64,000 nucleotides of DNA, taken from positions 1-64,000 of the forward strand of contig CAIKTR010000112.1 of the NCBI GenBank assembly GCA_903830425.1. Direction: 5' to 3'. Made by a program: the position numbers and the translations under genes. Shown one piece after another: positions 9,328-16,221 of the stretch. This stretch comes from an uncultured Opitutia bacterium (lineage in GTDB: Bacteria > Verrucomicrobiota > Verrucomicrobiia > Opitutales > Opitutaceae). Below the pieces are notes generated by a model. The model saw only the letters and a program-made list of their open reading frames with translations. It did no database searches and was not told where the DNA came from. Position 1 is the first letter of the stretch. Each line of letters opens with the position of its first letter.

Positions 9328-9395
9328 GTGGCATGGGCCTCCTGACCCGTGATAAGGTAACTCGCGCAAGACCTGGGTCGGGAGACCCGGGCCAC
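9328..9395. repeat. Two-hairpin REP-like palindromic element, copy A
   Basis: GTGGC ATGGGCC-TCCT-GACCCGT ... CTGGGTC-GGGA-GACCCGG G CCAC; 68 bp; matches copies at 10189 and 12722. Confidence 0.8.
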
Positions 9396-9399
9396 GGCC

Positions 9400-12300
9400 C
9401 TACCTGGTCCAGCTGAGGATCGCGGGCAGGCGGACGGATTCGCCGACGGCGCCGTCGACCAGCCAGACATCCTCGCCCGGGAAAATCTTGGCGGTGGGTG
9501 GGGCGGTGAGCGTGAGGGTGCCGTCATCCTTGGCCGCGAGCACGGTGGCGAGGGGCTGGTCGGTGCGGTTGCACAGGGTGGTGCCGCGGTAGATCGCAAA
9601 AATGCGCAGGGCGGTCTTGCTCAGGACGGTGGCGCCCGCGACGGAGGAGACATGCACGAGGCCCACGCGGAGGTCGTCCTTCACCGTGAGCACGAGGTCG
9701 TCGCCGTTGAGCGTAGCGGCGGTGATGGTGTGGACGGTATCGCGGAAAGGATTCGAGAGATGAAGCACACGGCCGGGGAGATGCATGAGATCGGGTGCGG
9801 GTGAACCGGCGGCGAGCCGGATGCGCAGTTTGCCGGCGGCGACATCGAGGGCGGTGACTTTGCCTTTGAGGCCTGAGGCGGCGAGCCGGTGATCGCCGAA
9901 CTGCAGGAAACTGCCACCGGCGAAGTAGGCGCGGATCGGCTCATTCTTGGCGTCGAGGGTGACGACGGCGACTTCGGCGTCGGTGGCAAGCGCTGGCTGA
10001 CCAGCTGGGGCGAAGTGGACAGGGCCGGAGCCGTGGTGGTGCACCACCATATCACGGCCGCCGTCCGTGCGGGTGATGGTGACAACGGTGCTGTTGTTCA
10101 AATCGTCGCGATGCACTGCGGCGATGAACGGCTCGGTGGTGAACGGCTCAAGCACCGCGGAGAAGGTGCTGGTGAACTCGGGCTCGCGGTGGCTCGGGTC
10201 TCCTGACCCGAGATCGGAAACCCCAGCACCAGACCCGGGTCGGGTGACCCGGGCCACGGCCACTCGGCGGGCGATGAGGTAGGTGACAATCTCGGGGTGC
10301 TTGATCGGCGAGACGCGGGCCTCGGCGCGGATCAGCTCCTGGCCGGGCTGCGGGAGCACGCGGAGGCGGAGGCGGGCGTTGGGATCCTTGTCGTGGACGT
10401 ATTCGGCGATGAAATCATCCGCGCCGGACTGCAGCCGCTGCACGTGGACGAGGTGCTGGAAGCCGGAGCCGGCGTAATTGAGATAGCTGCCCTTGAAGTC
10501 CTTCGCGCCGCGGACGGGGTCGTCGTAGAGTTCGCCGACCTTCACATTCGGACCGGCGAGCGTGCCGGGCTCGGGCGCGGACCAGGTACCGCCGAGCGCG
10601 GTGAATTTTCCGGTCGGGCCGTGCAGGCTGTAGTCGTGCTGGCGGCCGCCGGCCACGTCGAAGAAATCCACGGCATAGCCGCGGTCCTTGGCGGTCGCGG
10701 AGTCGGTCACGTCCACCATCACAAGCGTGCGGCGGAAGGTGGATGTCTGCGGGTAGGTGCCGGAAGCATCGGCGATCAGCGCGCGGGCGAACGGGCTGTC
10801 GGCGAAGAGTTGCAGATGGCCGGCGGGGTTGGCGGGCTGGCGGTGGGCGTCGACGGTGACGGTGTTGTGCGAGATTGTGGTTTTCGACCAGGTGAAGATG
10901 GACGAGTTGAACTCATTCGCGCCGTCGGGATAGCCGAGGTCGGGCATCATGTCCTGGCCGTGCGCGAACAGATCGAAGTGCAGCCGGTCGTGATGATAAT
11001 GCGAAACGTGTAGCCCATAGAAGAGATCAATGGAGCGCGTGTCGGCGGGATTGTTGAGGATCGCGGAGCCGTAGCCGCTGAAAATGCGCGACGGCTGCGG
11101 GGGCAGGGCGCGATCGTTCGCGAGCCCGGGAGCGGGCGGCAGAGCGGGGGAGAACAGGGACTCGTAGGTGCCGAAACTCTTGTCGCCGGTCGCCCCGATG
11201 CCGGCGAGAAACGTGGCGTAGCGCGGGTCGCCGTAAAGCTTCAGGCCAATCTGATACGTGAGGGAATCCTTGCGGATGAGCGGGGCATAGAGGTTGGAGG
11301 AGTCGCCCAGCGGGGCCGAGAGCTGGCCCAGCGTCACGTAGTCGAGCGGCTCGTCGAACATGCGCTTCAGACGCGGGAGCTGGGTGATGTCGTAGCCAAG
11401 CTGCTTGAGGAGCTGGGCGGTCTCGGCGAAGATGCGGACCCAGACGAAATTGTAGTCGGGCGATTCATGTGGCGCGCCGTCGCGGTACACGGAGTCATAG
11501 AACGCATAGTCGAAGCCGATCCGGAGCAGGTGTCCCTCGGTGCGGTGGAGTACCTCGTCCACGTAGCGGTGGTTGTCGCCGTGCTGGCGGACCACCGCGA
11601 GCATCAGCAACGCGCGCTGGTGCGTCCCGTAGTTGCCGCGCATCATGTCGAGGAAATAGCCGTCGATCGCCTCCTCGAAGTAATTGGCCTCGATACAGGC
11701 GCGGATCTGCCCGCCGGTCTGGCCGTAGAACTTCTGCAGCGCGGGGTCGCCGTCGATCGTCTCCCAGATGGCGTCGTAGGCCTCCGCCAGCGACGGCGCG
11801 ACCTGGTAGGATTCCCAGATGAGGTTCACGACCTTGCCGGTGTAGCGCGTGCCCTGGGCGCCCATCAGCTCGCCGAAGCGCGACTGCTGCTCATAATTCA
11901 TCGTCGGATAGACCTCCGCGACGCGCCGGAACAGCACGGCGGCCTTGTGGGCGTAGGTCTTGTCGCCCGTGAGCAGATAGGCCCGGCCGAGGGACCGCAG
12001 ACCGTTGGTGAGGCAGCGGCTGTCGAGGCCGGGTCCCTGCCAGACGAGATGGTTGGCGTGCGCGACAAACCAGTACTTCTGGTCGTCGGGCGCGGTCCAG
12101 CCCCAGCCGTCGTCGGCGTAGGGGCCGGTCAGGGTGGACTTGTCCTTGAAGCCGCTGTGGTAATATGCGGCGTAGTTGTTGCTGGGATAGGTCTCGCCGC
12201 CGATGGGGCACTTCACCTGGAAGGGATGCTGCGGATCGACGACCCACGGGAACGAGGAGCCGTTGCTGCCCTCAAATATTTTCCGGCCGTGGATGGGGCA

Positions 12301-12663
12301 GCCGGCATTGCAGAGTTCGACGGCGCGCGGCACTTCGGCGGTGGTCACGAGGTCGCGCAGGGCCTCGTCGGTCCACGCCGCCCAGTATTTCGCCTCGGTC
12401 ATGAACTGGTCGGCGAGCGCCTTGGCGGCGGGGGAGTGCGCGACGTTGGCGCGGGCCCGGGCGATTTCGGCGTCGGTATGGAGCGTGCGGGCGGACTTGA
12501 GCGGAAACTGCGGCGCGCGGACCTTGGGCGGGAGCATGACGCCGTGCGGGATCTGCGGCTGGACCGGACCGGCGGGAAACCACGGGTCGCGCGCGGCGAG
12601 GGGGGCGAGCGGGAGGAGGAGGGCCAGCGCAGCGGGTCGCAGGCGGGACAGGGTAGAGCGCAA
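9400..12663 (-). CDS. Heparinase II/III-like family protein, exported
   Basis: YGSAILNNPADTRSIDLFYGLHVSHYHHDRLHFDLFAHGQDMMPDLGYPDG...SHNTVTVDAHRQ. ORF open to ATG 12744, but that ATG is inside repeat copy C; TTG at 12663 gives a cleaner signal peptide (RSTLSRLRPAALALLLPLAPLAARDPW). Confidence 0.82.
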   Translation of the reverse strand: MRSTLSRLRPAALALLLPLAPLAARDPWFPAGPVQPQIPHGVMLPPKVRAPQFPLKSARTLHTDAEIARARANVAHSPAAKALADQFMTEAKYWAAWTDEALRDLVTTAEVPRAVELCNAGCPIHGRKIFEGSNGSSFPWVVDPQHPFQVKCPIGGETYPSNNYAAYYHSGFKDKSTLTGPYADDGWGWTAPDDQKYWFVAHANHLVWQGPGLDSRCLTNGLRSLGRAYLLTGDKTYAHKAAVLFRRVAEVYPTMNYEQQSRFGELMGAQGTRYTGKVVNLIWESYQVAPSLAEAYDAIWETIDGDPALQKFYGQTGGQIRACIEANYFEEAIDGYFLDMMRGNYGTHQRALLMLAVVRQHGDNHRYVDEVLHRTEGHLLRIGFDYAFYDSVYRDGAPHESPDYNFVWVRIFAETAQLLKQLGYDITQLPRLKRMFDEPLDYVTLGQLSAPLGDSSNLYAPLIRKDSLTYQIGLKLYGDPRYATFLAGIGATGDKSFGTYESLFSPALPPAPGLANDRALPPQPSRIFSGYGSAILNNPADTRSIDLFYGLHVSHYHHDRLHFDLFAHGQDMMPDLGYPDGANEFNSSIFTWSKTTISHNTVTVDAHRQPANPAGHLQLFADSPFARALIADASGTYPQTSTFRRTLVMVDVTDSATAKDRGYAVDFFDVAGGRQHDYSLHGPTGKFTALGGTWSAPEPGTLAGPNVKVGELYDDPVRGAKDFKGSYLNYAGSGFQHLVHVQRLQSGADDFIAEYVHDKDPNARLRLRVLPQPGQELIRAEARVSPIKHPEIVTYLIARRVAVARVTRPGSGAGVSDLGSGDPSHREPEFTSTFSAVLEPFTTEPFIAAVHRDDLNNSTVVTITRTDGGRDMVVHHHGSGPVHFAPAGQPALATDAEVAVVTLDAKNEPIRAYFAGGSFLQFGDHRLAASGLKGKVTALDVAAGKLRIRLAAGSPAPDLMHLPGRVLHLSNPFRDTVHTITAATLNGDDLVLTVKDDLRVGLVHVSSVAGATVLSKTALRIFAIYRGTTLCNRTDQPLATVLAAKDDGTLTLTAPPTAKIFPGEDVWLVDGAVGESVRLPAILSWTR
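10189..10257. repeat. Two-hairpin REP-like palindromic element, copy B, in frame inside the heparinase-like CDS
   Basis: GTGG CTCGGGTC-TCCT-GACCCGAG ... CCCGGGTC-GGGT-GACCCGGG CCAC; exactly 69 bp = 23 codons (VARVTRPGSGAGVSDLGSGDPSH). Confidence 0.85.
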
Positions 12664-12721
12664 CAGCCGGCAGGGTGAGGCAGTGGCGCGCCTGCGGCAA
12701 ACTTTTGCCGAGGGGAGCGTC

Positions 12722-12784
12722 GTGGCATGGGTCTCCTGACCCATGGCGGAAGTCCGGAATCACGGGTCGGGAGACCCGGGCCAC
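12722..12784. repeat. Two-hairpin REP-like palindromic element, copy C
   Basis: GTGG CATGGGTC-TCCT-GACCCATG ... CGGGTC-GGGA-GACCCG GG CCAC; 63 bp. Confidence 0.83.
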
Positions 12785-13377: not shown

Positions 13378-16161
13378 TCAGTGCCGGTAGGTGCCGAAGG
13401 CGGGCAGGCCCGCCTCGACGGTGACCTGGAAGGTCTGCTTCACCTGGGTGTCCTTCAGGCTGAAGGTGGCGGTGTATTCGCCCGGCGGCACGAAGCGGTC
13501 GGCTTCGTCCCCCATGTAGTCGAAGCGGTACTCCTTCTGCAGGCGCAGGTCCCAGCTGAGCCGGGTGAAGCCGGGCACGGCGGCCTGCTCGAACTTGGCG
13601 ACCTCGCGGCCGGTCGCGTCGGCGATGGCGACCTTGAACTTCTCGCCCGTGAACGCCTTCACCCACACGGTGAGCAGCGCGCCCTCGGCGGGGTTCTTGC
13701 CCTCGAAGAAGCCGGTGCCGCCGGAGTCGGTCCAGCCCGGCAGCAGCAGGCGGCCGTGCGCGGGCCGGATGCTGAAGAGGTGCGCGTCCTTCGCGGCGAC
13801 CGCGGGCGTGAACTCGCGCAGCGCGCGGCTGTCGTCGAACACGTAGAGCGAGCGGCCGTGGGTGGCGACGACGATGTCGGCCTCGCGCGGGTGGATCTGA
13901 ATGTCGTCCACGCGCACGGCGGGCAGCCCGCCGAACTTCACCCAGTTCTGGCCGGCGTTGAGCGAGGTGAAGAGGCCGAACTCGGTGCCGAGGTAGAGGA
14001 CGCTCGGGTTGACGGGGTCCTCGCGCAGCACGATGGCCGGATGCGTCGCGGGCAGGTCGCCGGTCACGCGCGTCCACGCGGCCCCGAGCTGGGTGAACCG
14101 GTAGACATAAGGCGTGTCGTCGCCGGCGCGGTAGCCGGTGAACACGACGTAGCCGGCGCCGGCGTCGGAGTGGCTGGGCTCGATGCGCGCGACCCACTTG
14201 CCGCGGGCCTCGGCGGGCACCTGGGCGGTGAGCTCGGTCCACTGCCGGCCCTCGTCGGAGGTGACCCAGAGCCGGCCGTCGTCGGTGCCGGCGAAGAGGC
14301 GGCCGGCCTGGAGGGGGGACTCGGCGAGGGCGTAGACGACGGCGTAGTTTTCGGCCGTGCTGCCGACGGTGGTGGTCTTGTCGCGCTCGTTGTACGACAG
14401 GTCGGGGCTGATGATCTCGAAGGTCTCGCCGTGGTGGGTGAGCTTGAAGACGCGGTTGCCGCCGAGGTAGAGCACGTCCGGGGCGTGGGCGCTGCCGATC
14501 AGCGGGGCGCACCACTGGAAGCGGAAGGCCTTGGAGCCCTCGGTCGGCTTGGGCTGGAAGTCGCGCATCTCGCCGGTGCGGGCGTTGAAGCGGTGGACCG
14601 AGCCGCCCTGCGATTCGGCGAAGATCACGTCCTTGTCCGCCGGGTCGAAGACGGTGTAGAAGCCGTCGCCGCCGCCGATCATCGTCCAGTCCGAGTTGCG
14701 GATGCCCTCCTTGGTGAAGGTGCGGGAGGGCCCGACCCAGTTCGTGTTGTCCTGGAGGCCGCCGGCGATGCGGTAGGGCGTGCCGTGGTCGAGGGCGATG
14801 CGGTAATACTGGCCGGAGGGGACGCTGTTCAGGAACTGCCAGTTCTCGCCGGCATCAAAGGTCTGGTAGAGGCCGCCGTCGGTGCCGATCAGGAGGTGCG
14901 CGGAGACCGGCGGGACCGGCTGGGCGGCCGGCTTCGCCGGCGGGGGCGGCACGCTGCCCGGCTGGATGGCGATGGCGTGGACGTCGGAGTGGACGTTGCC
15001 GGAGCGGTCCTCGCGGAAGGTCTGGCCGGCGTCGTCGGAGACGTAGACGTGCCAGGCGATGACGTAGACGCGCCGGTCGTTGGCCGGGTCGATGGCGAGC
15101 CGGCTGAAGTAGAAGGGCCGCGGGTTGAAGCTGTTCACGCGGGTCCAGGTGGCGCCGGCGTCCTCGGAGCGGAACACGCCGCCGCTGCGGCTGTGGTTCT
15201 GGTCGATGTCGCTGGTGCCGCCCTCGTCGCTTTGGACGATGGCCATGACGGTGCCGGGCTTGCCGGGCGCCACGGCGAGGCCGATGCGGCCCATCCGGGC
15301 CGGCAGGTGGTGGGTCAGCTTGGTCCACGTCGTGCCGCCGTCGGTGGACTTGAAGATGCCGCCGACATCGGCGGCGTCCCGGGTGGCGTTCACGCCGTAG
15401 AGGAAGGCCCAGGGCTTGCGCTGCCGGGCGTAGAGGGCGGCGTAGAGGAGGTCCGGGTTGGCGGGATCCATGGCGACGTCGGCGCAGCCGGTGAGCGCGT
15501 CGTGGGGCGCGGGCGCGCCGAGGACGAGCTGCCAGGACCGGCCGCCGTCGGTGGTGCGGTAGAGGCCGCGTTCGCCGCCCTCGGCCCAGAGCGAGCCGCC
15601 GGCCGCGGCGAACACGATGTTGGGGTTTTTCGGGTGGATCAGGATCCGGCGGATGGTGCGCGAGTCCTTCAGGCCGGCGTAGGCCCACTGGCCGCCGCCG
15701 TCGGTGGACTTGAAGAGCCCGACGCCCCAGCCGGAGGAGTTGCGGTCGTTGCCCTCGCCGGTGCCGACCCAGACGACCTCGCTGTCCGACGGCGCGACGG
15801 CCACGGCGCCGATGGACTGGGCGGGCTGGTCGTCGAAGATCGGGGCGAGGGTGACGCCGTGGTTGGTGCTCTTCCAGACGCCGCTGGTGGCGTAGCCGAC
15901 GTAGAAGACCCCCGGGTGGTGCGGGTCGATCGCGAGGTCGGAGATGCGTCCGCCCATGACGGCGGGGCCGATGGCGCGGGCCGCGAGGCCCTTGAGCTGG
16001 GCCTCGGTGACCGGCGCGGGGACCGGGGCAGGGACGACGGCCGGAGCGGCCGCGGCCGCGGCGGCGGGGACGGTGGGTGCGGCGGGGACGGGAGCGGCGG
16101 TCGCGGCGGTGGAGAGCGCGGCCCAGGCCGCCAGGGAGAGGAGCGGGAGGCGCAGAGACAT
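13378..16161 (-). CDS. Secreted VPS10/sortilin- or BNR-repeat (sialidase-like beta-propeller) protein
   Basis: Repeated Asp-box motifs (STDGGGQWAYAG, TTDGGRSWQLV, STDGGTTWTKL, SEDAGATWTRV, SDDAGQTF, SLNAGQNWVKFG); signal peptide. Confidence 0.85.
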   Translation of the reverse strand: MSLRLPLLSLAAWAALSTAATAAPVPAAPTVPAAAAAAAPAVVPAPVPAPVTEAQLKGLAARAIGPAVMGGRISDLAIDPHHPGVFYVGYATSGVWKSTNHGVTLAPIFDDQPAQSIGAVAVAPSDSEVVWVGTGEGNDRNSSGWGVGLFKSTDGGGQWAYAGLKDSRTIRRILIHPKNPNIVFAAAGGSLWAEGGERGLYRTTDGGRSWQLVLGAPAPHDALTGCADVAMDPANPDLLYAALYARQRKPWAFLYGVNATRDAADVGGIFKSTDGGTTWTKLTHHLPARMGRIGLAVAPGKPGTVMAIVQSDEGGTSDIDQNHSRSGGVFRSEDAGATWTRVNSFNPRPFYFSRLAIDPANDRRVYVIAWHVYVSDDAGQTFREDRSGNVHSDVHAIAIQPGSVPPPPAKPAAQPVPPVSAHLLIGTDGGLYQTFDAGENWQFLNSVPSGQYYRIALDHGTPYRIAGGLQDNTNWVGPSRTFTKEGIRNSDWTMIGGGDGFYTVFDPADKDVIFAESQGGSVHRFNARTGEMRDFQPKPTEGSKAFRFQWCAPLIGSAHAPDVLYLGGNRVFKLTHHGETFEIISPDLSYNERDKTTTVGSTAENYAVVYALAESPLQAGRLFAGTDDGRLWVTSDEGRQWTELTAQVPAEARGKWVARIEPSHSDAGAGYVVFTGYRAGDDTPYVYRFTQLGAAWTRVTGDLPATHPAIVLREDPVNPSVLYLGTEFGLFTSLNAGQNWVKFGGLPAVRVDDIQIHPREADIVVATHGRSLYVFDDSRALREFTPAVAAKDAHLFSIRPAHGRLLLPGWTDSGGTGFFEGKNPAEGALLTVWVKAFTGEKFKVAIADATGREVAKFEQAAVPGFTRLSWDLRLQKEYRFDYMGDEADRFVPPGEYTATFSLKDTQVKQTFQVTVEAGLPAFGTYRH

Positions 16162-16221
16162 GAGCCGCAGAAAACAGGGGCCCCGGCCGGGGGCAAACAA
16201 AAGCGCGGAGGGCGGCCGGGC

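Follow-up and report, generated by a model that had tools for sequence, protein, structure and literature searches.

An in-frame REPIN within a polysaccharide-lyase-like gene of an uncultured Opitutaceae bacterium

A polysaccharide-lyase-like gene of an uncultured Opitutia bacterium carries within its 3' third an inverted pair of GTGG-tagged hairpins (REPIN), here called copy B, which is in frame and has no stop codon. The element was analysed in a window of 64,000 nucleotides (the whole stretch, contig CAIKTR010000112.1 of the GenBank assembly GCA_903830425.1) and compared with the genomes of relatives. We estimate with a probability of about 90% that copy B is an ordinary insertion of a RAYT-type REPIN and that in-frame, stop-free and loop-tolerated copies are the ones that survive selection. 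The established parts of this reading are the structure of the REPIN, the orthologous site without an insert, the open frame, a host gene kept by purifying selection, a RAYT-like gene with flanking REPs in relatives and the in-frame bias.

The anatomy was tested with the definition of the GTAG superfamily, a GTRG tag at the foot of a hairpin with a stem of 6-9 bp. Both arms of copy B have a perfect 8-bp stem, a 4-nt loop and a GTGG foot, and face each other as two inverted REPs with a spacer (Table 1). The element starts with GTGGCTCGGGTCTCCTGACCCGAG and ends with the reverse complement of GTGGCCCGGGTCACCCGACCCGGG. REPINs of the relatives have total lengths of 52-129 bp. The computed RNA fold consisted of two strong hairpins with -44 kcal/mol and a z of -3.8 against shuffles, as foreseen by the original prediction of a strong double hairpin in the mRNA, which had also placed the element exactly and given its exact length of 69 bp. 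Because the GTGGCTCGGGTCTCCTGACCCGAG arm read from its own end gives a TGA in frame 0, copy B is open in only one orientation in that frame.

Table 1. Coordinates of the REPINs and of the host gene in the window
Feature	Position	Strand	Remark
Copy A, REPIN	9328-9395		just past the host stop codon; flanks common to G011
Host gene, Hepar_II_III_C protein with remote PL17 alginate lyase likeness	9400-12663	-	likely TTG start, by alignment of orthologue methionines
Copy B, in-frame REPIN (69 bp)	10189-10257	-	minus-strand reading VARVTRPGSGAGVSDLGSGDPSH
Copy B, other arm, GTGGCTCGGGTCTCCTGACCCGAG	10189-10212	+	from its own end, frame 0 would give TGA
Copy B, spacer between the hairpins	10213-10233		21 bp
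Copy B, 5' arm in coding orientation, GTGGCCCGGGTCACCCGACCCGGG	10234-10257	-	loop CGA; about half of the arms have TGA
Copy C, REPIN (63 bp)	12722-12784		just upstream of the host gene; spacer and flanks common to G011

The host gene was called as a minus-strand open reading frame of 1,114 amino acids (9400-12744). Its product matched Hepar_II_III_C of Pfam above the cut-off (E 3e-10), and an alignment of ten sequences compared with the PDB matched PL17 alginate lyases (E 9e-8). The palindrome had been described as lying in frame and stop-free inside a heparinase-like coding sequence, and this was confirmed by its translation, VARVTRPGSGAGVSDLGSGDPSH. The ATG called as the start at 12744 falls within the upstream REPIN, copy C. 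Judged by the methionines of the orthologues, the true start is likely the TTG at 12663, and with this start copy B is the only one of the local REPINs inside the coding sequence. The minus strand of the window also encodes a repeat protein of 940 residues (13378-16200), sialidase or VPS10-like by eye, which six relatives lack at the equivalent locus; there, its neighbours lie side by side.

The comparison with orthologues revealed the empty site. Copy B was absent from all ten orthologues that could be aligned there, which span the genus of the window species and another genus; none of them carries the 23 residues, in agreement with the lineage-specific insertion that had been proposed. At the protein level, orthologues read for example LIARRVA-GPG-EPELTSAF and the window species LIARRVA-VARVTRPGSGAGVSDLGSGDPSHR-EPEFTSTF. 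At the DNA level, a typical relative has gtg gcc gga ccc ggc gaa ccg, compared with gtg gcc (69 bp) cgc gag ccc in the window. The site has therefore gained 69 bp and is missing about 6 bp of the target, an estimate, as the relatives have diverged around the site; the net gain is 63 bp or about 21 codons. The predicted figure of 23 codons thus holds for the element itself, whereas the protein has gained only about 21 residues. No target-site duplication was seen.

The position of the insert in the protein, surface loop or core, was addressed with AlphaFold. The model built from ten sequences had a mean pLDDT of 50.7 and a pTM of 0.38, weak overall and better in the C-terminal part; a single-sequence model of the host protein reached a mean pLDDT of 34.7. 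Residues 812-839, which include the insert, had a pLDDT below 50 and were located between the strands 800-809 and 839-849. The peptide of copy B is accordingly predicted to be a disordered surface loop between two beta-strands in this moderate model.

To follow the repeat family across genomes, the REP pattern GTGGCNNGGGTCNCCNGACCC was searched with 0 mismatches in 95 genomes, which were surveyed by pattern and region and are mostly draft, incomplete assemblies. The pattern was found in 9 of the 95 with 2-176 matches each, and the reversed control pattern had 0 matches in all 95, showing that copy B is not a product of chance. Full REPINs are dispersed in the genome G053 (70 copies), and 42 REPs were found in G011, the nearest relative. 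The window genome has three REPINs, equal to six REPs, all at the host gene; beyond copies A, B and C there was no other REPIN in the 3.5-Mb assembly of this species, a draft of 254 contigs. From these sequences, the REPIN family occurs in several Opitutaceae and appears associated with a dedicated Y1 transposase (RAYT).

The candidate transposase is a RAYT-like gene of G053 (C109) with an NHVHV motif, which has REPINs of exactly the family of copy B on both sides and scored 77.7 bits with the RAYT profile NF047646 (cut-off 80). Homologues with 57-60% identity were found in G002, G047, G016 and G034, all flanked by GTGGC or GTAG hairpins with the same or a close stem. In G002 and G047 these are same-stem REPs, so that a putative cognate RAYT flanked by the same REPs is present in G053, G002 and G047; in G016 and G034 they are similar GTGGC hairpins. 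The IS200-like Y1 genes of G036, G041 and G053 were rejected as the transposase; they are not flanked by the REP of copy B and fit the NCBIfam IS200 models better. Many RAYT genes were observed in the Opitutaceae genomes, many of them flanked by a GTAG or GTGG hairpin of their own type (L251-L270, L273-L288), and offer a rich set for the study of RAYT-REP pairing. A RAYT was not found in the window genome, and movement there therefore cannot be current. A close RAYT was not found in G011 either, and both results fit a REPIN population that would have become extinct in the window lineage, with a relict remaining at a single gene.

The locus was also compared with G011. Its orthologous gene also contains an in-frame REPIN, a different one of 77 bp (VARVSSPVMADQGAEAKPTGQETRAT) at another position (L107 5195-5271). 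REPINs are also located downstream and upstream of the orthologue (L107 3281-3349 and 6856-6918) and match those of the window by spacer or flanks, so that copies A and C are ancestral or were jointly acquired. A G011 frame of 1,381 residues runs through the upstream REPIN; this part was rejected as coding because the orthologue starts lie downstream of it. The main rival explanation is that the window lineage received the complete gene, REPINs included, by transfer or recombination from a relative that is close to G011 and carries REPINs. Such a transfer would explain why all six REPs are at one gene with no other in 3.5 Mb, and it agrees with the missing RAYT and with the copies common to G011. 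Against it, the gene neighbourhood is the same in the relatives and the divergence from G011 is similar for a neighbouring gene (86% identity) and for the host gene (about 82-89% by segment), as expected if the gene was inherited vertically and REPINs were lost elsewhere. The gene tree decided neither way, and a sister relation of the window species and G011 was neither backed nor opposed by it. We consider the transfer unlikely, but it is the alternative to be taken most seriously.

Whether REPINs are generally kept in frame was tested with a six-frame codon model on both flanks of each sampled REPIN. In nine distinct cases, both flanks scored as strongly coding on the same strand. Every one of the nine was in frame, without a single frame shift, which has a chance of about 5e-5 if one third is expected in frame and the cases are independent. 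Seven further in-frame cases were found by inspection and Pfam. At least 16 of the 73 distinct REPINs sampled in the relatives are thus in frame, and with the window copy at least 17 in Opitutaceae. At least 13 are in G053, in kinase, cyclase, helicase, TIR and other proteins. The inserts lie within Pkinase, Guanylate_cyc, DUF3516, DUF2264, nSTAND1 and YjeF_N domains and at the end of TIR domains; in alignments to solved kinases and adenylate cyclases, a gap opens at the REPIN insert. The DNA is high in GC, and many of the long open frames that span REPINs are shadow frames; these were left out of the count.

Target bases were lost at other sites as well. Compared with orthologues, an NTP-transferase-like gene of G011 has gained 69 bp and lost 24 bp, and the DUF3516 helicase of G053 has gained 58 bp and lost about 10 bp (L196 2483-2540). 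The frame is therefore made up even when the length of the REPIN is not a multiple of three. The same loop of the DUF3516 helicase that holds the REPIN in G053 has a single REP and a low-complexity stretch in G036, of another genus (L309), and is plain in 15 other genomes. Several TIR-domain proteins, in G053 (L187, L190, L191, L197) and in G041 (L139), carry an in-frame REPIN where the TIR domain ends, ahead of the linker. These may go back to one insertion copied by gene duplication, or the site may have been struck repeatedly.

A second bias was observed for stop codons. An arm with TCCTGACCC contains a TGA when read in frame 0, and this is present in 60 of 114 arms outside genes. No 5' arm kept the TGA in the 11 frame-0 intragenic cases, window copy included; as paralogous TIR genes are not independent, this is a tendency only, without an exact probability. 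In G011, the arm inside the gene reads GGGTGTCCTCACCC (GGGTG-TCCT-CACCC), where two compensating changes remove the in-frame TGA and keep the stem. This arm is unique among 146.

These observations bear on the explanation that the segment was selected for a function, as an enzyme-altering peptide or an expression-tuning double hairpin in the mRNA, and is not merely tolerated. The stable RNA fold would agree with it, as would the compensated TGA in G011, the two internal positions struck in the same gene, which has flanking REPINs in both species, the same DUF3516 helicase loop struck in two genera, and the several TIR proteins with a REPIN at the same linker. However, the hairpins belong to any REPIN, the struck genes are functionally unrelated, the loop and linker positions are what tolerance would give, and the TIR cases may be one multiplied insertion. 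A selected function is therefore improbable.

The state of the gene was examined by pairwise dN/dS with six relatives. The values were 0.18-0.27 before the insert and 0.25-0.38 after it, so that purifying selection acts on the parts of the gene to either side of copy B. A decayed pseudogene, which had been named as a possible objection, is very improbable with these values and an open frame of 1,114 codons free of stops. The same holds for an assembly artefact, which the draft state of the assembly might suggest: the three local copies are not identical (81% and 75% identity), which makes a collapsed or duplicated repeat unlikely, and the same pattern occurs in independent genomes. The least credible explanation is that the segment belonged to the protein from early on and was lost in other lineages: nothing was found in favour of this, the ten orthologues of two genera are without the segment, and dozens of unrelated sites hold a repeat that matches its DNA.

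Taken together, our results favour the RAYT-type insertion. A REPIN with GTGG tags, probably moved by a RAYT, has inserted in the 3' third of the gene and replaced about 6 bp, keeping the frame. The insert would be translated as about 21 added residues in a flexible loop between two beta-strands, as the moderate model suggests, with a presumably near-neutral effect on the enzyme. Copy B probably persists because it keeps the frame, contains no stop and is tolerated by the protein structure, and frame-breaking insertions would have been eliminated. In the window lineage, the RAYT and nearly all REPINs are by now missing. It is a doubtful, speculative extension that REPINs of this lineage are a repeated source of in-frame loop peptides, with survivors tuned for read-through and with both hairpin and peptide selected, as the loss of the stop codon from the G011 copy with its hairpin intact would illustrate. 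The Opitutaceae set, with its at least 17 in-frame cases, one gene struck at two internal places and one loop struck in two genera, makes tolerance versus selection testable.

Copy B is a clean bacterial case of a short mobile repeat turned into protein sequence, for which the empty site was identified together with the copies nearby and a likely transposase. With the orthologues lacking the residues and the gene intact, the proposed REP-like protein exonisation is supported, an idea that was itself already documented (PMC3733652; PMC10969869). The classic precedent is the Rickettsia palindromic elements (RPE), which occur in frame in many unrelated genes and were judged compatible with protein structure (PMC10969869). 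Both are palindromic and in frame, but RPEs are about 150 bp long, have another sequence and belong to another phylum, and RPE-4 and RPE-6 are of the CGTC type (PMC3733652); copy B has neither a CGTC-type tag nor this length. The REPINs and RAYTs of Pseudomonas (Bertels and Rainey 2011, PMC3116915; Nunvar et al. 2010, PMC2817692) likewise have two inverted REPs with a spacer, many copies and a REP-flanked RAYT gene. There, REPs are usually extragenic, whereas in the relatives at least 16 of the 73 sampled REPINs are in frame within genes, and the window genome is without a RAYT. Another close system was described by Di Nocera et al. (2013, PMC3733652), who found REP dimers inside genes encoding 20-30 residues. 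Opitutus terrae was the richest genome for GTAG repeats, GTGG is a tag variant (GTAG-20 family), some genes were struck twice, and intragenic REPs were argued to be tolerated survivors. The window case shares with it the bacterial family, the REP dimers in coding sequences and the GTGG tag, and differs in the species and the genes. In conclusion, in-frame REP insertion has been described before, most often in this same bacterial family, and copy B adds comparative evidence with the empty sites, the frame count, the stop-codon bias and the REP-flanked RAYT-like gene.
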